Shown here in pieces: positions 14,201 through 62,152 of a stretch of 64,000 nucleotides of DNA (position 1 is the stretch's first letter; every line of letters begins with the position of its first letter). The notes beneath the pieces were generated by a model. The model was not told the DNA's origin. It ran no database searches and saw only the letters and a program-made list of their open reading frames with translations. Source of the stretch: Arbacia lixula (taxonomy: Eukaryota > Echinodermata > Echinoidea > Arbacioida > Arbaciidae); assembly GCA_963669155.1 (NCBI GenBank), contig CAVLGW020000017.1, positions 62,001-126,000 of the forward strand, in the 5' to 3' direction. The translations under genes were made by a program, and so were the position numbers.

Positions 14201-16160
14201 CTGGTAATTGAATCCCGCAGGCCTTTTCACATATTCACACTCTCTTCTTCCTTTTTGTCTCGCCCACCGGAGGTGAAGGCGAGACTAAGGGATCCAAATG
14301 GCGTCCGTCCGTCGTCCGTCCGTCGTCCGTCCGTCGTCCGTCCGTCGTCCGTCCTCCGTCCGTCGTCCGTCGTCCGTCGTCCGTCGTCCGTCACAAATGT
14401 TAAAGTTTACCTGCAAGACTCTCTTTTGACAAATAACTTCACATAGGTTGCTTGGATTACAACCTAACTTGGGTCATAGATGCACTAGGGGTACCTTCAT
14501 GTTATGGTACGGTTGGAGGTCACAGGATAAGGTCAAAGGTCATTTGAGGTCATACGTTAAAGTTTACCTGCAAGACTCTCTTTTGACAAATAACTTCACA
14601 TGGATTGCTTGGATTACAACCTAACTTGGGTCATAGATGCACTGGGGGTACCTTCATGTTATGGTACCATTGGAGGTCACAGGATAAGGTCAAAGGTCAT
14701 TTGAGGTCATACGTTAAAGTTTACCTGCAAGACTCTCTTTTGACAAATAACTTCACATAGGTTGCTTGGATTACAACCTAACTTGGGTCATAGATGCACT
14801 GGGGGTACCTTCATGTTATGGTGCCGTTGGAGGTCACAGGATAAGGTCAAAGGTCATTTGAGGTCATACGTTAAAGTTTACCTGCAAGACTCTCTTTTGA
14901 CAAATAACTTCACATAGGTTGCTTGGATTACAACCTAACTTGGGTCATAGATGCACTGGGGGTACCTTCATGTTATGGTGCTGTTGGAGGTCACAGGATA
15001 AGGTCAAAGGTCATTTGAGGTCATACGTTAAAGTTTACCTGCAAGACTCTCTTTTGACAAATAACTTCACATAGGTTGCTTGGATTACAACCTAACTTGG
15101 GTCATAGATGCACTGGGGGTACCTCCTCTATTGTGCAACTGATTATCATCCTGTTTTGTCTTTGTCTAATCTAATAGAACTTGGTGGAGGCTTTTTATTC
15201 CATCTCAAAGAAGGGGGAAGGTGGGGGAGGGGGAGTAGAAAGAGGAAGTAGCATTGCGTGAAATAGCCCTTCTCATTTATGGAATGTTACATTCTATGGC
15301 AGATATTTCACAATCAGCCAGGGATACAATTCTTTTGCGTAGCAACGGAGATCGCGATATTTCTGGTTATTTTCGCAAGTGGGCGAGACACAATATTGCT
15401 AATGCCTTGTTCTCATTCACTCCTTTCTTATCTTCAGACTTTCCTTCTTACTTCTGCTCTTCTCCTTGTCATTCAACAACTGTTCCTCTTCTTCCTCCTC
15501 TTTCTTTACATCATTCTCCTCCTTTTCTCCCCTTCCTCTCCTCCTTTCTCCTCTTCCTCTCCTCCTGTATTACCTTACACCTCCTCTTTCTTTACTTATG
15601 GCATTGACACTGAGGTTTGTTTCAGGGTCATTCCATGGGGTTGGGGCAAAGTTTTCATGCAATGTCCATGTAATGGAGGTATCAACCTGTGCAGTTCACC
15701 ATGAAGATCAATTCACATGTGGTTAAGTTTTGAGCTGTCAATAAAAAAATGCTTTCTTTTCTCAGTAAAAGACATTAAAATTGGAAATCTTTTATGGATT
15801 TGAAGCAACAGGCATACCAAAATCTACCAGCGTTACATGGACATTATATTGTTTCTACATGGACAAGAAATGTTCATAAGTCAAATTGCAATATGCCTCT
15901 GAGAAATAATACTGGATGGGACCCCATTTTTTTTTTACTCATGCCATTATTGGAATATATTTGCGTGGTTTGAAAAAGATATGGACTTGGAGTAGTGGTA
16001 TGTCCTAAAAATTGCCTTTACCCCATGGAATCACTCTTCACTATGTTTTCTTTTCATTCAGGAAAAACGTGGTGTCAAGTTCTCTACACAGTTCATCATC
16101 TCAAGCAGCCTTTTCAGCGGCCTCGTGGTGATTACATTATTTACCAAGACCTTCTCATGA
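8289..16160 (+). CDS. PIGK: GPI-anchor transamidase catalytic subunit (PIGK/GPI8)
   Basis: Nine exons: 8289-8375, 8974-9027, 9579-9729, 10044-10120, 11246-11454, 12515-12632, 13069-13179, 13674-13982, 16062-16160. All have GT/AG ends and compatible phases, giving 404 aa (human PIGK is 395). The protein is the cysteine protease of the ER-membrane GPI transamidase, which cleaves the C-terminal signal of a proprotein and transfers it to GPI. Residues 1-25 form a hydrophobic signal peptide. The caspase-like (C13) core starts at about 43 ([18 protein letters not shown]). Catalytic His162 is in YMTGHGG and catalytic Cys204 in [22 protein letters not shown] and [10 protein letters not shown] are family blocks. 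The last exon supplies a hydrophobic C-terminal segment ([17 protein letters not shown]), the expected membrane anchor, followed by TKTFS and the TGA. Oddities: DTCQ is followed by Ala-Val where human has Gly-Ala, and residues about 315-372 are a Pro/Ser/Gly-rich extension. The C-terminal 'DWHPP' block of vertebrates is not recognisable. Confidence 0.95.
8493..8610 (+). mobile_element. tRNA-derived SINE
   Basis: 'ggttagctcagtgcgatc' matches the Pol III A-box region of a tRNA (TRGCNNAGYNGG-like). 'gggttggggtaacactc' about 45 bp later is a decayed B box (GGTTCGANTCC). The block ends in an 'ataagtaaataaattc' tail. The spacing and tail fit a tRNA-headed SINE in PIGK intron 1. It is not a functional tRNA gene because no cloverleaf closes. 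Confidence 0.6.
8836..8935 (+). repeat. short dispersed repeat, family I
   Basis: A 'taaccctgtgcgtgccacgtg' start and a 'cacaaatcccatagag' motif. Related copies are at about 5985-6060, 12682-12769, 25379-25445, 36957-37049 and 60863-60930. All are under 100 bp, and several close with 'gagttaa'. This is probably a small MITE family. Confidence 0.5.
9921..10013 (+). mobile_element. MITE family H, truncated right end
   Basis: 'tgtcaaaccttcactaatat' through 'accaaaataatttcagggtg' to 'ccctttaa'. This is the right terminus of the family seen full length at 43673-44133 and 46361-46790. It ends 30 bp before the PIGK exon 4 acceptor at 10044. The shared 'aataatttcag' is a ready-made acceptor-like sequence. 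Confidence 0.7.
10215..10445. mobile_element. MITE family A, copy 2 (diverged)
   Basis: 'aaaatgtgacatcatgagca', 'gatcaagacaactg' and 'agcgggctagacaatgtcta' align with the family A element at 208-411. The right inverted end is degraded. Located in PIGK intron 4. The rest of that intron (to 11245) shows no exon. Confidence 0.6.
11469..11628. mobile_element. MITE family D, copy 1
   Basis: A 160-bp imperfect palindrome bounded by 'ggggccctgttgca' and the reverse-complementary 'tgccacgggcccc', with 'ctatcaatggcaac' and 'attgatgacagagttac' inside. Other copies: 20187-20343 and 29778-29925. Starts 14 bp after the PIGK exon 5 donor. Confidence 0.75.
12682..12769 (+). repeat. short dispersed repeat, family I (copy in PIGK intron 6)
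   Basis: 'taacccttccttggccagaa' at the left and 'cacataagagttaa' at the right give a short palindromic end pair. Related to 8836-8935. Confidence 0.45.
14257..14392 (+). repeat. hairpin plus (CGTCCGT)n minisatellite
   Basis: 'gtctcgcc' (14257-14264) and 'ggcgagac' (14278-14285) make a tight 8-bp hairpin with a 13-nt loop. A run of CGTCCGTC/GTCGTCC units to 14392 follows directly. It immediately precedes the 157-bp satellite in PIGK intron 8 and looks like the start of the same composite element. Confidence 0.8.
14401..15122 (+). repeat. 157-bp satellite array, 4.6 copies, each full unit with a DR1 motif
   Basis: Units start with 'taaagtttacctgcaagact' at 14401, 14558, 14715, 14872 and 15029, a constant 157-bp period. 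The units are almost identical. Each full unit ends with 'aggtcaaaggtca' (first at 14530-14542), a perfect direct repeat of AGGTCA spaced by 1 nt, plus one more AGGTCA close by. The array lies in PIGK intron 8. The rest of the intron (15123-16061) holds a pyrimidine tract (about 15410-15600) and no exon. Confidence 0.9.
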
Positions 16161-19749: not shown

Positions 19750-21308
19750 CTATGTGTCCATCATCTCGACATCTTGATCCGTTGAAGACGTCTTTGATTT
19801 CCTCTTCGCCTCTTTCTGGAGTGGTTTGGGTGGTTCGACCTCAACTGTAAATGAAAGTAGTAAGAAGGACAATAATGTATGTCAAGTCGAATTGGTAAGA
19901 AGTTAACACAAATTCATTTGAAGTAGTATAATGAACATTGATGAGAAATTGGAAACATGATATCCCCCCCCCCTAACAGCAGAGTATGACAGTATTACAT
20001 TCACTTGTATCCAGTGATTCATTGTCAGTGGATGGAATGCAATCTGAATCCATCAGTTACTGCTAATCAAACAAACCTCTGACAAGCTTTGGGGTTGTGA
20101 ATATATTCTGAAAGCGGCTCATTGACTTTGGGTAATTTGAACTGGCGTACATCTGCCCATGCGATGCGCGCATTGCATCTACGACCTGGGCCATGTTGCA
20201 TATAGGTTTTAAATTATTGTAACTTACCATCAATGGTAACTATGGCAACAGGTGCAATGCTGATAGCTTATTGGCTGTTGCTCTGGTAGTTACCATTGAT
20301 GCTAAGTTACAATAATTGGAAAACCTATATGCAACATGGCCCTGGCTTGTATATTCCTGCCATAGCATACTTGTTTGATTGTTCAATCATCCAAGGGTGT
20401 GTGCATACCTGCCATCTCATTTGCTTCTCTCTCTGCGATCATCCTCCCTTTCATCAGCTTCCGCTTCTTCTTCGAGGACAGCGCGACATTTGCCTTTGGG
20501 TTTTTCCTACAGGGTCAGAGAAATAAGAGGTTACAAACCTACTACATGTCCCTTTACTGATTGTTGTTCATGTTGCTCTTTCGTGGATATATGTGTTTGA
20601 GGGGTAATCTATAAAATCCACTCCAGGTCAATATACTCCCCCCCCCCCTCCCCCCGAACCCCAAAATCTCCCCCTACAAAAAATACCCCCCAAAATTACA
20701 AAAAAAAATACAATGAAGTCTGAACATACTGGCTAATACTACTTCTACTCATTTCTGTGCAATGTGTGGCTAGGCTTCATTGTGAGTGCTGTGGGAAATA
20801 ACATCAATTTTCCAAAGCAGTGATTTGGGCTATAGTAATAACTGCAAGGCTTTCTGAGAAAATTATACACATAAATACACATTAATACAAAAAATAGCAT
20901 GTACAGTTCAGTGAGAAAAAAACACAAATACAAACAAATAACATGTACAGTTCAGTGAGAAATAAGCACAAATACAAACAAATAACATGTACAGTTCAGT
21001 GAGAAAAAAACACACAAATACAAACAAATAACATGTACAGTTCAGTGAGAAATAAGCATAAATACAAACAAATAACACGTACAGTTCAGGGAGAAATAAA
21101 CATCATTATTTAATTTGCATTTTACATGTGGACAATAACAGATAACTGACCTTAAGATCTTGTTCATATGCTTGGTGACGATCTCCCCCGTTCGCCCCGA
21201 CTCCTGCTCATCCTTCCTGGCATCAAGTTTTCTGCGAAGGGGCGGCCTTGACCGTTCGCGCAGACGCTTCAACTTTCCCTTCGACTTGACGTGTTTGTAA
21301 GCTGGTTT
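19750..21308 (-). CDS. C11orf98-like small basic protein (5' exon missing)
   Basis: Three exons on the minus strand: complement(21151-21308), complement(20409-20506), complement(19750-19844), with phases matching at GT/AG borders. The product (partial, 116 aa) reads KPAYKHVKSKGKLKRLRE.., then ..NPKANVALSSKKKRKLMKGR.., then ..VEVEPPKPLQKEAKRKS..DQDVEMMDT and stop. From memory, human C11orf98 has the same order: a Lys/Arg-rich first half, 'ARANITLSGKKRRKLL', 'MEVEAPSKP' and a tail with 'QDVEMKD'. The function of that family is not established. The Lys/Arg clusters suggest a nuclear or nucleolar, nucleic-acid-associated protein (inference). The first visible exon starts in phase 0 without a Met, so an upstream exon must lie beyond 21308; I could not find it. 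That same exon start is copied four times upstream (see the array at 21283-22185). Confidence 0.72.
20187..20343. mobile_element. MITE family D, copy 2
   Basis: 'gggccatgttgcatataggt' mirrors 'acctatatgcaacatggccc', and 'cttaccatcaatggtaac' mirrors 'gttaccattgatgctaag'. A near-complete 157-bp palindrome in the last intron of the C11orf98-like gene, about 65 bp downstream of the exon 2 donor. Confidence 0.85.
20895..21110. repeat. 44-46 bp tandem repeat, five copies
   Basis: 'gtacagttcag' occurs at about 20900, 20944, 20988, 21034 and 21079, each followed by 'gagaaa' and 'aatacaaacaaataacatg'-like sequence. The array ends about 40 bp from exon complement(21151-21308), on its donor side. Confidence 0.85.
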
Positions 21309-48278: not shown

Positions 48279-51200
48279 ATGGAGAAAAGATCTGCAAAGT
48301 TCAACGAGGAGCCAAAGCAGCAGGTATGATTGATATTCTACCGCCAGCAACCTGTTGTTAGCTAAGCCGGCGCAACGGGGCGGGTGTACCTCCTAATTCC
48401 GCACAGTTGGCTTTAACCTGCGCGTCCGCACTTGTCTTGTCCGAAAAATCTGATGGTTTCAACTTTGAATACAGTCTTGCTCTTCACAGTTCATTAAATT
48501 CTGTACAGTGATAGGAAATAGAACAAATAACGAAACAGTTAAACAAACCATCTCTTCAGTAGACAGTACATCACGTAAATGTAAACATTAGGTACAGCAC
48601 TTCAGCACAGACACTTCAGCACAGACACATTCAAGTTAGGAAGACACATATACTAGATAGACCTGGAAACTCGACTGCAGAAACAACTGTATTTTTCCAG
48701 TAGATCCGGTAATAAAGGTAATAAAGGTAATTAAGAAGAGTCTACAACATCAAGTAGTATTAGAACATCTAGACTCAATTTTTTTTTTAGTTTTTTATTT
48801 TTACTATTTTTAGTTTGCTACATATGACAGGATTCGCTCAGTTGTATGACACTTCAACTGGTTGATGTTGTTGGACATCCTGTACATCTTGACATTTCAT
48901 AAAACTAACAAAAGCTCTCAAATATTCAATTGACGTAATTTTTGAGAGTCCAATTTTATCAAACTTTAAATTGTTAGAAAAAAAAAAGCATTAGCATTAC
49001 AGCAGTTCTAAACATCTAGACTAGTAGATCTACAACAGTTGCGGTAGAACATCAAATTTATGTTGTTTATGTTTTACTTATTTCTGTTTCTGTCACACTC
49101 TCACTTCTTTTCTTCCTCACCCCCCCCCCTTCCCCACCTCCACTCTTTCTCTTCATCTCTTCTGTGCACACTCCCCCAAGTTGGCGCTAGTTTATAAGTG
49201 TCCATATACTTTGGCACTTATTTTATGAATTTGAACCCTAAACCTAACCCTGACCCTAAAGCTAACCCTAAACTTAATTCTAAACCTAACCCTGACTCCA
49301 ACCGTAACCCTAGACAACTTCTTTGCTGTTGAATTCGTCCAAAAAAGTGATTTCTAGGTCTGCATAAGCCTGTTCACTGTAGCTAGGCCCTAACCTAGCC
49401 GACCTAGCCCCGGGACTGCTACGCGGCTAGCTACCTGTGACTAGTAGGCTGCCGTGGAACAACTTATGAACTAGCGCCCACAAGTTCTGTGTCTGGCTTG
49501 CTATCAAAATTTGTTTATTATAAAACAAATAATAACACATAATGTGTTATTATTTGTTTCCAAATTCCATTTTATTCATGCGTAAAATGAATGACTCATG
49601 ATTCCTGTTTATTTCCAGTACTGGCTGAAGCCAACTGCAGATGCCCTAGCGAAATTAGATGCTATCCAATCGTCTGTCAACAACATGAAACCAGCCAGTA
49701 CTTTCAACGTCCAGTCAGTATGGCGTCCTTCAAGCTCGACACCAAATGAACTTGTGGAAGACACAGCAATGCAAGAGCTTCGAAATTTTGTCAGCGCCAG
49801 GGCGTCTTCTTACACTGAGCTGGAAACCAAACCACCGCTGTCTACGGTGAACATTCAGAAAACAGCGTGGTAAGTTTCTACAGTGAGCTTGAGAAAAACA
49901 ATTGTGTACATGTAGATAGATTTTTAAAGTAAGTTAATGCTTTAGCTTCCCGGTGTAACTATTTAATTTTTGGTTTCATTCTTTTCACATGGGTGTACCC
50001 AATTTGTCAAGCCACTGACAGGTAATCCTTTTTCTTCATTGTTTATAATACTTACACATGAATTCTCTACAGGACTCATGTTGAGTCGATTTTCATTAAT
50101 CGTCATTATTACACATATTATATTTCCTATGTTATTTTATATGTTGATATGATACATATTTCAATGTTGCATATTTTTTATTGTTCAAATCAAATTTATG
50201 AAATGAAGAATTGAATTGAATTGAATTGAATTGTATTGTACAGGGGTGGTATTCTAAAAGAAATTAAGATTGGACATGAGTTTTGACTAAGGTCCCCTAC
50301 AATCCATGACTGATTATCCTATCGGCACAGTTTTGGATTTTAGTCAGTTTTCAGAATACCAACTGTAGCTAACATAGTTCTTTCAGGATAACACCTCAGG
50401 TCTGCGCAAGCATTTATTTTGTAGGAACGTTTTCCATGTTTATGCCGTTTTAACAGGACATTTTGGCATTTCTTGTGCGATTTTTAAAGTGTTTTCACTC
50501 AACCATGACACGAAAATGACTTCTTATGTTTACATAACAGGTCAAGTTACATCTTTGTCAAAATATCCAGAGTTTTATTTTTTCACAAAAATACTGGGTT
50601 TTTAAAAGTTTCAAACTCAAGAGGAATGCGTATTTGTTAAACGGTCTCCACCCAACCAGAACAACCTGATTAAAGTCAAAGGCTGCTTTCAAAAAGGAAC
50701 AAAACAAAGTGGATGGTTGGAAGATTAAGGAAGCTATGGGTGTTTGTTCAGAAGTGCCTGGCAGATTTTCTTTCAGTATCCCTTGGTCTTGCTCCTCCAG
50801 GATAAAATCTGTAGGAGACTGAGCAATGAGAGTTTCCTTCAGTCAATTTCAACACATCACTGTCATATTATAAATCATATATTCGGAGTATTGATTTTAT
50901 CTTCTGATTGCATTATCATGCATTCCTGACACACAGCATCACATTTTATGTTACGACACAGGTGTCAAACAGTATAATCACTGAACTTAACACACTGGCA
51001 ACTCAAACTGTACAAGTTACGTTTATTATCCTTCATTGCACAGGGGAAGTAATACATCCATTCCAGACCTCATCAAGGCTCAGGGTGAGCGACAGCGGCA
51101 GAGGACCAGTAGCAACCCTCGTCGCCCCTGGAGTGGCCGCAAGGTGCCCCCCAGCCCCACTTCTCAGCGAAGAAGCAGCAGCAGTAACAGCAATGTAAGC

Positions 51201-54200
51201 CAAGGAGCCAGTGGGGTCGAACCTGCCAAGGATACCAGAGAGACTTTTATTACAGGTACATAAAAAGTATGAAGCTGGTCTAACTCTCGATATACATATT
51301 TATAAGTGCTGGAGCTGCCAAGGAGATAGGAGAGGTTTTTATTTCACGTATACGTGCTATTCTAACAGTGAATTGAAATAAGTACTCGGGGCGGCCATGG
51401 AATTTAGACTTTTATTGCAGGTAAAGTATAGAGCTGGTTTAACTTTATATAAAAGTCTTATCAGTGATCTAGCTGCCAAGGAAAGAAAGAGAGACTTTTA
51501 TCGTAGGTATACAAAGTTTGGAGCTGGTCTAACTCTAGATGTACATTTTCATAAGTGCTCTAGCTGCCAAGGAAATAAGAGAGATTTTAATTTTATTCAT
51601 ACAAAATATGGAGCTGGTCTAACTTTGGATATATGCAGTAAGTGTTATAAGTTCTCGAGCTGCCATGGAAACAAGAAATATTTGTATTATTTTTATGCAA
51701 AGTATCTCATTTAACTTTGGATATCAGTTTTATAAGTACTTCAGCTGCAAATGAAACAAGAGAGACTTTTAAAACAGGTATGCAAAGTATCTGGTTTAAC
51801 TTTGGACATAATTTATAAGCACTTTGGCTGCCGAGTAAACAAGAGAGACTTTAAAAACAGTTATGCAAAGTATCTGGTCTAACTTTGGATATAAGTTTTA
51901 TAAGCACTTCGGCTGTCAAGGAAACAAGAATGACTTATAAAACATGTATGCAAGGTATCTGGTCTAACCTTGAATATAACTTTCATGAGTACAGGTATTA
52001 CACATATTACAGATTTGCAAACTATTCTTCATCCAGTGTTTCTTCTAATTATGTGATTGTTGATATTCAAATGTTAGTGAAAGGCTCAAGGTCCGTCATG
52101 TACGAGGCCAGCTCCAGGCCTCCCAGTGGCCGCTCCCAGCCACCGTCTTCAAGCACAGTCCCACCTACTCCCTCAGGTGATGTGTTTGAGTTAATGGAAG
52201 CAGCGAACAGGCAAGCAGTTGAAGGAGATTTTCAGGAGGACAACAAGCTGGAAGAGTTCTTGAAGAGTCAGCCTAATTCCCACAGACATGAGCTATGTAA
52301 GTGATATATAATTTATATGCATTTGCTTGTTTTTTATACGATGTCACCATATGGGTAAGCCTCTAATTCTTTTATGCTTCTGGTGGCATTAGCCTTTCCA
52401 GATATCGTTATCTCAATATCTAAAAATGTTTGACCCAATTTAATCAGACTTGGTAAAATGATGACAGGACCACTAACTGGGTATATATTAGGTCAAAAAG
52501 GTCAAAGGTCAAGTGTCAAAATATAATATTTTACAGAATAACTCTATAAAGATTAAGATAATGATAATGATTTTGGATCACACCTTGTTGTTCAACGTTC
52601 AAGGTATTTCTATAAAAACGTGAATGTTTACTGAATTATGAGGTCACAGGTCAATGAACTTTGCCAAAACTTGATATTTTTCACAACAAATACAAATCCG
52701 ATATTTCAATACCCACTTAAATCCGTACAAAGATTGATGGTGATATGGAGGAAAAAAAGGAAACATTTTTTAAAAAATCAATGAAAGGTCACAGGTCATT
52801 GAACATAGTCAAGCATTTCCCAAATTGACGAAAGTTACGTCATTCTCCCAATATAGAATTTAAATTTCCCAATGTTATCCAAACTTGATACTGTGTAAAG
52901 GTGTATTTAATACCACATGGACTTATCCTTGTGACGTACAAGAGGTAAAAGGTCAATGAACTTTGTCACTCAGAACTAGCTCAAAACAACCTAAAAGTAA
53001 TGCTTTTTGCAAGAACTAGAAATCCAATATGGTCCAATCTCAACCCAATGTAATATAACGATGGACTACTATATGGAAATGGGATTTGAGATCAAATTAT
53101 TCAGAGGTCAAAGAACTTTCCTAAAATTGTACGGAAGATGTTGATCCTAAAATTGTCAAAAATGTCAAAATGTTATATTCAATTTCTACCAGACATGGCA
53201 CAGATGGATCACTATGTGAAGACATTGTCACGGTCAAAGGTGAATGAAATATGGCAATAATCAGGCATTCAATTGCCCAATTTCAATTAAATGTTTTATT
53301 TTTCTGAGCATGGAAGATTGGCAATTCAAACTACACGTAGATAAAGGTGGCCAGGAGGTATAGTTATCAGATGCCTGGCAGTTGGATTGCCCTTGTTCCT
53401 ACAATGTACTGGCGTAGAAATCAGAATTACTTTTTTTGTATATGTAGTTGAAATAAACTATTAGAATAGTTTTTATGTCTTGAGATGGCGCTATGTTATA
53501 ACTCAACCAAATATCTCAATTAACTGATAAGACTTTCAGTCAGATATGTACATGTAGGCAATTGTCAGAGATCTCGGTAAAAATTTTAAAAAGATACTTT
53601 ATGCAGTTACTCAACAAACATCTCACCAAACTTCACCAAACTTTGGACAATTAAAATTTATGACAGACCAATTTATTGATTAGACTTTGTGTCATATAGG
53701 TCAATGGTCACGTGTCAAGGTCAAGTCCTGGGGGATGGTCATAGATTAATTGTTGTTTATTGATAAAAACATACTTAATATGAAACTCCAGAGACTTATT
53801 CAGCTTACAGTGAACAGATATACAGCTATTTCAAATAAACAAATCACATACATTTAAGAGGTATTAATTAAATGGAAACAAACAACTGTGAGAGTTATAT
53901 CGCAATTCTTGATTTTGATCTCTAATATTTCATGCAGTGTTTCATAGATCAAGGGCACATCCCCAAATTTCATGGGATATATGATGTATTTCAAGATGCT
54001 ATTTGGTGGTCTGTGACTTGTCACTTGACCCAAATCTTAATATCTGTAAATGAAATGTACATTAGAATAAAATTTAGTACATTTACATGAAGTTAACAAA
54101 CCTCTTGTCAATTAAACACTCAAGTAACCTGTTTTTACAGCTTTCATTTGAAACTCTTTTGACTTTTTTTTTTGTTCATGCACTGAAAGTTCTTGGCATG

Positions 54201-57200
54201 CCAAAAGTTCAAGCATGGTTGAGTTTATGGATGGCACGATTTGATAATGAGCATCAAAAGAAGCGCCGATCAAATAACATTTGTTATCTCAAGATTCAAC
54301 ACTGTATATGCTTGGTCATGTGTCTGGACTACTGGGTATCAAACACTGATTCTATTGATCTGCTGTTAAGGAAACCATGCCAAAAATTTAGTCAGTCCGT
54401 CCATGACGATCTTCCATTATTGATCAGGCCCTACAGTAGAGGAAATAACCGACACCAATCACCTGCCAGACAGCTGCTTTATGCTGTAACCATGGTAATG
54501 AGCCAATGAGCATGGCGACTTGATAGAGGTGGGGGGGGGGGGGCGTTGGTTTGGTAGAGTTCATACACAACAGGCATATATATTTCATTCTCTTGTCTGC
54601 GAGTGTGATCCATCCACATTGCTGTGATGACGATAGTCAGCGATGATATGATAGTGGTTGAAGATTGCAAAGCAATTACAGCACACATAGCGATCACCTG
54701 AAAAGGTCGAGAGTGACCATTCTTGATGGAGTCAGTGGAAGGAGAGCATAATGAACGATGTTGTGGCTGATAATACTGTTTGCATTTGACCATCCAGCAT
54801 AGTGCTAAACACAGAATGTTTTATATTCTCAGGTAATTATTACTTGTTTACATCAGTGTCATGTCTCTATGTATGTGTTTGCGTAATGCTGAATAGATCT
54901 TACGCGTACACATAGATGTTGCTAGAGGTTTTTTTTTTTTATTCATTTAGTGTTTACTATTTACTGCATGCTCAAATTTTGAAAAGAGTATTTAATCCCG
55001 TGAGTACCAAAGCATAAATGAATCATTGACCTTAAGCACATTACATGTTCCCATGGTAATAAGGGGGTTAAGAGTTGTATGTGACAGGGGGTTGGGGAGA
55101 AATGATTTGTGTTTTATGTGTTCTGTTTCTATGGCTGTTGTGTATTATACACAGTATATATACATTTCTCACATCTCTCTCTCATTCCCTCTCCCTTTAT
55201 CTTTCTCCTACACCCTTCTCTCCTTTTTTCTCTCTCTATCAATGTCACTTTTTCTCCCTCCCACTCCCCCTCTCACTATCTCTACCTTTATTTCCTTTTC
55301 TGTTTCCCCACCTCTTGCTCTCCTTCCTCTCTTATAATCTACTCGTATACCCCTTACTCTTCTTCTCCATCACACTGTATCTTGATCTTCCTTTTGTCCC
55401 CCACCACTCTCTCTCTCTCTCTCTCTCTCTCCCTCTACCTCCCTCTACCTATCTCTATATGTCACTCTTTCTCCCTCCCCTCTCCCTTCTTTGTCTTTTT
55501 CTCTCTTTTCTGTCTTTTTCTCTTTCGTCGTCTTTTGCTACCCTTGTTTTAAATTATCTCCCTCCTTCTGCTTTTCTCTCTCTCTTTTTATCTTGCTCTA
55601 CCTTTTGTTTTGTTCTATCTTTTGTTTTCTCGTCCCCCCCCTCTCTCTCTATTTCTTTCTCTCTTACTCTTCCCCTGTCTCTCCCTCCCTTCATTCTTTC
55701 TCTTTCCCTTACTCTAATGCTCACATCTCTCCCTTCCCCTCCCTTTTTCTCTTTCTTTTTCTCTTTCTTTCTGTCCTTTTTTTTTTTCTCTCTCTCTCTC
55801 TCTCACTCACTCACACACCCACGCCTTCTCTCTCTTTGCCCGTCGTTTACTCTACCCCAACCCGTCTTTCCCTTCCTCTCCTACCCCTCCCCCTTTTTTG
55901 CTTTTCCCATTCTACTCGGCAGCCAAGCTATCGGCTGCTTATGCCAGTGAGCACAGCATCTCCCCCCCACCTCCCCCTCCCTGTGCCTCCCCTGACCTTG
56001 AGAAGCTCATCAACGGAGGGCTTGACCCGGAGGAACCACACTTCTTCAAGGAGAAGAGTCAGCAAATCTCAACAAATCATCATGAGGAGGAGGAGGAGAA
56101 GGATGGAGAACGATTTAGAGCAATAAGCATTCAACAGGTTAGTTAGCATTCACCTCGTGGTGTGAATTACAAGAGTGGGTGATTTCAATCACTCACTATA
56201 AGTAGTATGTGGAAAAAACAATTGTGATATTGATTCCAAGGACAACCATCATTGATATGACAGAATCCTAATATTCCATGTTTTTAATGTTGTGCTCTAT
56301 AACGTTAAAAGTCCAGTTTTAGTACGTGTACTACAGTTAAACCACTGTTTAGTATCTGGGCCTGTGAGTTTGCAGTACTGTGATTTACATGAGTGAACAC
56401 TGCATTTATGTGTATTGCTATGATATATTTTTCTTTTTATCAGTCCTCTGCCCCTCCGCATCCGCTGCTACGCAGACCTACCCCTGAGCCATTGAGATTG
56501 TCCATGACCCTGCCTGATGCTGAAGGGGATGCAGATTATTCCACTGATGAAGATAGGTAGGTTTTTATCCTGAGCTCTCAAGAGATACATCAGGTTTTGT
56601 ATGCATTGAAACCTGCTATATGACTAAGTTTTGGAAAAGATTACGTTTTTGACTATATTTTAGGAATTATTTTGAATTGTGTGGGTGGGATTAGTGTGCC
56701 TTTTTTAGTATTACACAAATATGACAATATATGATTTAAGGATTAGTGAAGGGAGCTTTAATGAAATTGGAGATGAGCTTGTCAAGCACAAAATGATAAA
56801 TAAAATATATCTTTGATTGTGAGTTATGCTTTTTTGTTGCACTTGATTTGCACATTTTTTAAAGATAAAATGCTCAGCTAGAGAAGACAGAGAAAATAAA
56901 CACATAATTATGTGACATACATCAGCTAATGTGATTGAATACATAGTGGCAGTTTCAATTTGTCAGGATGTTACTTTGTACTCACAGAAATTATTGATAA
57001 ATCATGTCTTGTGATTTCCCCCCAGGTCATCTAATACTTCATCTCCTCAGCTATCGCCTGACATCGATGTGCAGAGTGTGACGAGTGAAGTGTCTTTACA
57101 ACCTGCCCCTCATCTTGCTGAGCCATTCAGAAATAGCCCTCTGGAGAGTGGTTCAACCCACAGTGGTGTAAGGAGTATATATATCACACCACGGGGAGAG

Positions 57201-60200: not shown

Positions 60201-62152
60201 GGCCACATTCAGTGTTTTTACCAATCAAAGAGCAGGATTTTTTCATTGGGGACATAATGCTTGAGAGCAAGTCTTTTACTTATAATTGACTTATTGCGTC
60301 TAGCAATTGCTTCACTAAGAAATATCATTGAACACTTGTAGTGTCTTTACCAATCAGAGAGCAGGATTTTTTCATTGGGGACATAATGCTTGAGAGCAAG
60401 TCTTTTACTTATAATTGACTTATTGCGTCTAGCAATTGCTTCACTGAGAAATATCATTGGACACTTGTAGTGTCTTTACCAATCAGAGAGCAGGATTTTT
60501 TCATTGGGGACGTAATGCTTTAGAGCAAGTCTTTTACTTATAATTGACTTATTGCGTCTAGCAATTGCTTCACTGAGAAATATGATTGAACACTTGTAGT
60601 GTCTTTACCAATCAGAGAGCAGGATTTTTTTTTTCATGAGGGATATAATATTTGAGAGCAAGTCTTCAATTTGTAAATTATTTATTGTATTTAGTGAACA
60701 AATGGCTTTACCAAGAGATGAATTTCCTTGATTCGAACCCATTGCAGAAGCCCTCACGAAGGAGTTCATCACCCTCAGCCCAAGTACACAGCAACTCTAG
60801 CAGAGCCTTGACCCCAACACTATTAAAGAGGTATACAGGTCAATGACCTTTTTGTCTCTTTCTGTAACTCTTTGTGTGCCACGTGTGACTTTTTCACAAA
60901 TAAAACTTGCAATTCCCATAGAGCAGCATTTTTTATTATTTATTTATTAAGTCTTTTTTTTTGTAAAACAGGGCAGCCCCATCAGTGAGCTTAGCACTGC
61001 TCTCCCTGGAGGCACTGTGTACAAATATAACACGATAATACAGAGTAACCTGAACATAGACTTTAAGATTTTACCTTGGCGATTTTGGTAAAAATAGCTT
61101 TTGTTGAAAGAGAATGTTTGAATGATTTCATGGATGTCATAATTCTATTTCTCCAGCTGGCCACAGAATTCATTGTACCATACATGTCGTTTTAAAATAA
61201 AGAGACATTCAAGTGTATCTCGATACCTTATATGAGAGGGTTGATATTTCAGTTTCTGTGATCGAGACATCATGGCGCTGTCCATTAGACATTCACCAAT
61301 CACAGTGCATCGAACAGCCGCAACTTTCACCTATCCAATTTTATTCTGAATTTTACTGATGTGTTTCTTAGATTTTTCTGCATATTCCAAATGTATATCT
61401 GGGATACAAATGATTGTGGGCATGGACTGCTCCTTCGATAGTAGCAAACACAAAATGGGACAATTTTAGCAAAATGACAGATGTCAGTTGACACAATGTT
61501 TCTCATAATTGTCCCTTTTCCCTCCACATTGCTCACATCTTGTTGGTAGCAATGGATCACGTACATGCTTGGTTGTACATATAGTGATTTAATGTATTCA
61601 GCCCCTTAGTCCCCTGGGCAATAAACAGCGTCTGAATTGATGTGGGACTATGATTGATAGGCACCAAGAGGGTTAATTTCCTTATCTATCTATTTGCCAA
61701 CAGTAAAGCAGAAATTCAGAGGAATAAGTCTGCCGTGCAGGCATTGAGAGATGGCTCCTTGAAGAAGACAAAGACGTTTGATAAGCAAGGTGAGACAACC
61801 GCATGTATACCGTGGAATGACTGCCCCTTAGCGACTGCCATGATTTTTTAATGATCCCTTGAAATCGAACAAGTACAAAGACTTACAAGCATACAATGAC
61901 ATGGGTATTTCAGCTTCACAATCATTGTGAAATGTGTAGATAATCAGCTGTCTTCCAATTCCATGTGTACCTGATTGTGTTGCTACGGGGTATAGAAAAA
62001 GGTTAATTAAATAATTGTGATCCTTAGACGTTCTGCCCCAAACCAAGGCTGATAAGACAAGTATGACACTGATACAAATCCTAATGATAATAATCATTAC
62101 AAGAGCGGAAGGGAGAGGAGAGATTAGGCAGACTATGAGAATCAGAGAAAGG

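Follow-up and report, generated by a model that had tools for sequence, protein, structure and literature searches.

A decaying minisatellite that probably derives from a duplicated exon end fills most of a modelled intron in Arbacia lixula

The DNA analyzed here (the window) is a 64-kb stretch of the Arbacia lixula genome (assembly GCA_963669155.1, contig CAVLGW020000017.1, positions 62,001 to 126,000), with a GC content of 39.4%. Its plus strand carries an animal-type gene with GT-AG introns. The modelled exons of this gene that surround the feature described below join in phase:

49619-49869, plus strand, modelled exon
51044-51255, plus strand, modelled exon 3, entered in phase 2 and left in phase 1, acceptor ..TTGCACAG/GGG
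52078-52296, plus strand, modelled exon 4, entered and left in phase 1, acceptor AAATGTTAG/TG
55923-56137, plus strand, modelled exon
56444-56556, plus strand, modelled exon
from 57026, plus strand, modelled exon

A search with the gene product found no Pfam family at the cut-off. The first 493 of its 694 residues had no convincing relative in the PDB, the best match having an E-value of 0.17 over a stretch of 21 residues. Scans of the 64-kb window for Rfam families and tRNAs found nothing.

Exon 3 has an open reading frame whose entry phase suits exon 2 and whose exit phase suits exon 4. An open frame across 57 codons has a chance probability of about 0.15 and is by itself no proof of an exon. 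Coding scores were calculated with the other modelled exons of the same gene as the training set. Positions 51085-51222, which lie upstream of the repeat described below, had an exon-frame score of 1.10 log2 units per codon; among 384 overlapping intron windows of the same size, the highest value was 0.02 per codon. The remaining two frames score lower than the exon frame but still high (0.80 and 0.52), and much of the coding score is carried by GC composition. GC content is 63% in this segment versus 34-37% in the two adjoining introns, and it falls from 63% to 42% at the edge of the repeat. The short 5' part of exon 3 (51045-51084) scored just 0.12 per codon. The repeat unit thus appears to straddle a real-looking exon end, exon 3 itself being a putative, modelled exon.

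Splice sites were scored with a simple weight matrix that uses metazoan frequencies and with the 5' end of U1, not with MaxEntScan. The start of exon 4 is the least certain point of the gene model because its acceptor (52056-52080) scores weakly, at -4.9 versus 3.5-6.6 for the other modelled acceptors.

The intron between exons 3 and 4 is largely occupied by an array of nine head-to-tail copies of 77-96 bp, spanning 51223-51992 with an approximate 3' end. The array accounts for 737 of the 822 bp (90%) of the modelled intron. The copies are as follows:

51223-51314, plus strand, copy 1, the final 33 nt of exon 3 and the first 59 nt of the intron, matched by a profile of copies 2-9
51315-51391, plus strand, copy 2, junction AC/GT
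51392-51472, plus strand, copy 3, intact junction CAG/GTAAAG with GT at 51421
51473-51563, plus strand, copy 4, intact junction TAG/GTATAC with GT at 51507, nearest to copy 1 (80%)
51564-51659, plus strand, copy 5, junction lost
51660-51744, plus strand, copy 6, junction lost
51745-51827, plus strand, copy 7, intact junction CAG/GTATGC with GT at 51778, no stop in the exon-3 frame across its exon-like 33 nt, which follow a CAG
51828-51912, plus strand, copy 8, junction AG/TT, identity to copy 7 87%, exon-like half interrupted by an in-frame stop
51913-51992, plus strand, copy 9, truncated, junction AT/GT

The copies match the unit consensus at 66-84% identity, and their pairwise likeness ranges from 47 to 87%. 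The most alike pair, copies 7 and 8, lies in the interior of the array, and the most diverged copy is copy 2, not one at the edge. An nhmmer profile built from all nine copies detected each of them with an E-value of at most 1.1e-12, and BLAST self-alignment gave E-values as low as 7.6e-101 within the array. Tandem Repeats Finder called the better-preserved 3' part alone (51694-51983, period 85, 84% matches). No further match in the 64-kb window passed the inclusion threshold of the nine-copy profile, and no BLAST match to the array was found elsewhere in the window at E-values up to 0.01. A dispersed repeat is ruled out inside the window, since no copy beyond 51223-51992 passes nhmmer inclusion.

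A profile built from copies 2-9 alone recovered copy 1 at 51223-51312 with an E-value of 3.8e-15, and the first unit therefore reaches into modelled exon 3. The exonic share of copy 1 (51223-51255) is 33 nt, or ten whole codons and parts of two. These 33 nt match the unit consensus, to which copy 1 itself contributes, at 31 of 33 positions and are the top site in the window; the next seven sites are other copies. Judged by eye, the 35 nt preceding 51223 do not resemble the sequence with which the other units end, which places the start of the array inside the exon. A preliminary description of this DNA, made from the sequence alone, had proposed that the first unit contains the last 12 codons of exon 3 together with its donor and is followed by eight degenerate copies. 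Alignment of the units agrees with it on both points. It had also counted three intact AG/GT junctions among the eight intronic copies. The count is correct, as are the positions given as about 51420 and 51779 (51420/51421 and 51777/51778); the remaining one had been placed at about 51515 and is really at 51506/51507.

Six other arrays of the window were checked roughly by coding score, and two of them were viewed by eye; neither of the two covers an exon edge. A 44-bp × 5 minisatellite at 20873-21102 starts about 50 nt into the intron that follows a coding-like minus-strand exon, and the donor near 21150 is left out of the repeat. At 60211-60666 a 129-bp × 3.5 array (94%) lies in the intron just before a coding-like exon at about 60748-60830 and stops short of its acceptor. 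The 157-bp × 4.6 array at 14399-15124 (98% matches) adjoins a (CGTCCGT)n tract and is recent-looking.

The intronic copies of the exon 3 array are degenerate throughout. AG/GT is intact in three of the eight versus 4.1 expected at the mean per-site conservation, and 24 of 70 four-column blocks of the unit are intact in equally few or fewer copies. The junction columns have a mean conservation of 0.70 versus 0.85 in the rest of the unit, with 8 of 81 five-column windows equal or lower. In copies 2-9 the exon-like halves (47 mismatches to the consensus in 260 positions) and the intron-like halves (71 in 393) have decayed equally, at 18.1% each. The exonic half of copy 1 has two mismatches in 33 positions, the fewest of the nine, and its intronic half has 10 in 52. 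The one-sided Fisher P value for this exonic half is 0.058 against the other copies and 0.08 against its own intronic half, and coding constraint on copy 1 would accordingly be borderline. Such a pattern would be expected if the intronic copies decayed neutrally and the exonic one was under coding constraint; the sites are few, and weak selection would be compatible with them too.

The last ten codons of exon 3 within copy 1 (51225-51254) scored 0.29 per codon in the exon-3 frame. Among 572 overlapping exon windows of the gene this is an ordinary value, at the 29th percentile; of 4,428 overlapping intron windows, 2.1% score at least this high. The intron-like halves of all nine copies scored from -0.38 to -1.7 per codon. 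In the exon frame, the exon-like halves of copies 2-9 range from -0.87 to 0.10 per codon and are mostly no longer coding-like. Seven of the nine exon-like segments are 33 nt long, and six of these seven are open in the exon-3 frame; this openness is uninformative because none of the three frames of the unit consensus contains a stop.

Taken as a whole, the array is probably a decaying minisatellite of the 'mirage' type discussed below, derived from a tandemly duplicated exon end, with passive junction copies and with splicing most likely still running from exon 3 to exon 4. Specifically, a segment of about 90 bp, with 33 nt from the end of the coding exon and 50-60 nt from the start of the intron, would have been tandemly duplicated. 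Expansion by unequal exchange or slippage would then have continued until the array occupied the greater part of the intron. Coding and splicing constraint would have been maintained on the exonic copy, and the eight intronic copies would have been left to decay, their duplicated AG/GT junctions persisting as passive remnants. We infer the direction of duplication from copy 1: the exon-intron boundary would predate the array because this copy is coding-like to the left of AG/GT and intron-like, with an in-frame stop, to the right of it. Splicing from exon 3 to exon 4 most likely continues from one of two donors, the first of which scores higher and is also in frame:

51085-51086, plus strand, predicted alternative donor inside exon 3, AGG/GTGAGC, phase 1, score 9.88
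51256-51257, plus strand, modelled donor of exon 3, CAG/GTACAT with no G at +5, score 5.44, U1 duplex -7.6 kcal/mol

The array copies would see at most low-level cryptic use.

The same boundary could in principle have arisen in the reverse direction. The array would then once have been purely intronic, with the end of exon 3 upstream of it, and a later shift of the donor into the first unit would have lengthened the exon by about 11 codons. We regard this as unlikely, yet it keeps some weight because the other copies are no longer coding-like in their left halves. Phase-compatible donors are present upstream, namely the strong 51085 and a further site at 51211 (score 4.91), and the modelled donor at 51256 is weak next to the four other modelled donors of the gene (6.3-9.6). 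The drop in GC content at the repeat edge also fits an exon that has grown into a repeat. Nevertheless, the exonic copy is coding-like in the exon-3 frame and has, at borderline significance, the fewest changes among the nine exon-like halves. The exon-3 frame scores best in eight of these nine halves, an observation of little weight since the copies are related. The end of exon 3 inside the repeat encodes a PAKDTRETFIT-like sequence.

A more radical possibility is that the entire intron was born from tandem duplication of an exonic segment containing AGGT, a model that has been published for such arrays (PMC3087553, PMC4974935). The share of the modelled intron taken up by the array is what this model would give, and two of the four AGs that would give an exon 4 open in phase (51870 and 51954) sit within the array. 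Yet the right half of copy 1 has an intron-like composition and a TAA (51261-51263) in the exon frame, and is unlikely ever to have been coding. The two AGs in the array are in poor context, with A at -3, and lie away from the repeated AG/GT junction. The best placed acceptor, at 52077, is 85 bp past the array; its own score is poor, so its position is not decisive, and all four phase-compatible AGs are in weak contexts. Birth of the intron from the array is, on this balance, quite improbable.

The preliminary description had read the array as a ladder of decoy donors, in which the copies would be retained because competition among donors buffers or regulates how exon 3 is spliced, truncation being the result. 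The donors themselves lend this some substance. In copy 3 the donor at 51421 scored 7.58 (U1 pairing -9.6), in copy 4 that at 51507 scored 2.47 (-7.7) and in copy 7 that at 51778 scored 9.07 (-7.7), the top score of the array. Two in-register donors (51421 and 51778) thus outscore 51256, and U1 pairing of all three intact copies is at least equal to that of the modelled donor. The word AGGTA occurs four times in 51257-51992 where the window as a whole predicts 0.83 (Poisson P = 0.01). Three of the four are the intact junctions and one (51953) is out of register; the excess is what repeating one junction would give. Cryptic use of the array donors would be possible because the copy 3 and copy 7 donors outscore 51256, U1 pairing is at least as good and AGGTA is over-represented.

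Such use would be costly, because any of the three intact array donors taken as the end of exon 3 adds two codons and then a stop. The earlier reading of GGT ACA TAA past the normal exon end, with the stop at 51261-51263, is right, and so is its corollary that a later donor would truncate the product. The buffering or regulatory role fares less well. The junctions are kept no better than the rest of the unit, and the two halves of the unit decay evenly. Donors scoring at least 5.44 are no denser in the array than in the window at large (three seen, one of them the out-of-register site at 51638 with a score of 6.01, versus 2.27 expected; P = 0.39). In published arrays of this kind, splicing appears to be undisturbed (PMC3087553). 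Retention of the copies as competing donors is accordingly given very little credence. A look for sites resembling recursive splice sites, with a pyrimidine run followed by AG/GT, was negative for the four intact junctions, upstream of which pyrimidines make up just 31-63%.

The donor at 51085 was absent from the preliminary description and would be a more obvious alternative site than the array copies. In place of 51256 this predicted donor drops 171 nt (57 codons) in frame and leaves the joined translation open. The locus might then act as a reservoir of isoforms, with exon 3 running to 51256 or, 57 codons shorter, to 51085, and with copy 7 sometimes serving as an in-frame micro-exon of 33 nt. 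The odds of this are slight, judging from predicted sites; if it were true, turnover of the array would generate coding cassettes and donors within a short span of evolution. The least credible suggestion is the micro-exon taken by itself, that is, copy 7 as an optional cassette at 51745-51777: its 33 nt are open in phase 1 with an open joined translation, its donor outscores all others in the array, a CAG borders it on the left and TTTAAC lies upstream, but its acceptor is poor (-1.2, against 3.5-6.6 for the modelled acceptors and -4.9 for exon 4) and the exon-like halves show no extra conservation.

Arrays of this kind have been described before. In amphioxus globin genes, Ebner and colleagues reported exon-intron boundaries that are duplicated in tandem in a minisatellite-like manner, and they cited Adh3, the gene to which the name 'mirages' goes back, for the same phenomenon (PMC3087553). 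PGBD5 has been added as a mirage gene with imperfect repeats, and TnC has been cited (PMC3902484). The units of Adh3, BflGb6, BflGb9, TnC and PGBD5 are arranged head to tail and include an exon edge with its splice signal (PMC3087553, PMC3902484), as in Arbacia. Amphioxus units range from tens of bp to about 160 bp (PMC3087553, PMC3902484), a range that includes the units found here. Many, not all, of the mirage units carry AG/GT (PMC3087553), just as only some of the copies do here, and BflGb9 likewise has a duplicated exon 3' boundary (PMC3087553). There are also differences. The BflGb6 units are 81-100% identical in pairwise comparison (PMC3087553), and those in Arbacia are more diverged. 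The extent to which nine copies fill the modelled intron is a further difference from the amphioxus mirages. The amphioxus authors consider that their data suggest undisturbed regular splicing (PMC3087553). The Arbacia array is best read as a further example of the amphioxus-type mirage already described, not as a new phenomenon.

Two other published cases are related in part. Human segmental-duplication genes contain internal tandem repeats at exon-intron boundaries (PMC2812944), and the Arbacia repeats resemble them in lying at an exon edge. The human repeats differ among recent paralogues, and transcripts support the new introns that some of them form, whereas the Arbacia array gives no sign of a new intron. 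The Rogers model, as cited in PMC3087553, invokes duplication of a segment spanning an intron-exon boundary. A boundary-spanning segment is duplicated here too; unlike in the model, the array leaves out the modelled acceptor, and the unit is not coding-like in its intron-like half.

As it stands, the array would appear to show decay rather than function. A human minisatellite of the IFI6 type, with a 12-bp unit, reportedly contains multiple splice donors that are used, to go by the title of the study. The Arbacia array is likewise a minisatellite that repeats a splice donor; unlike the human one, its donors are only predicted and carry no sign of selection.

The array is a clear, diverged case of an intron filled by a minisatellite that carries copies of an exon edge. 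Cases of this kind are relevant to the origin of introns and of alternative donors. The two copies that score above the modelled donor would offer a simple natural test of donor choice among near-copies.
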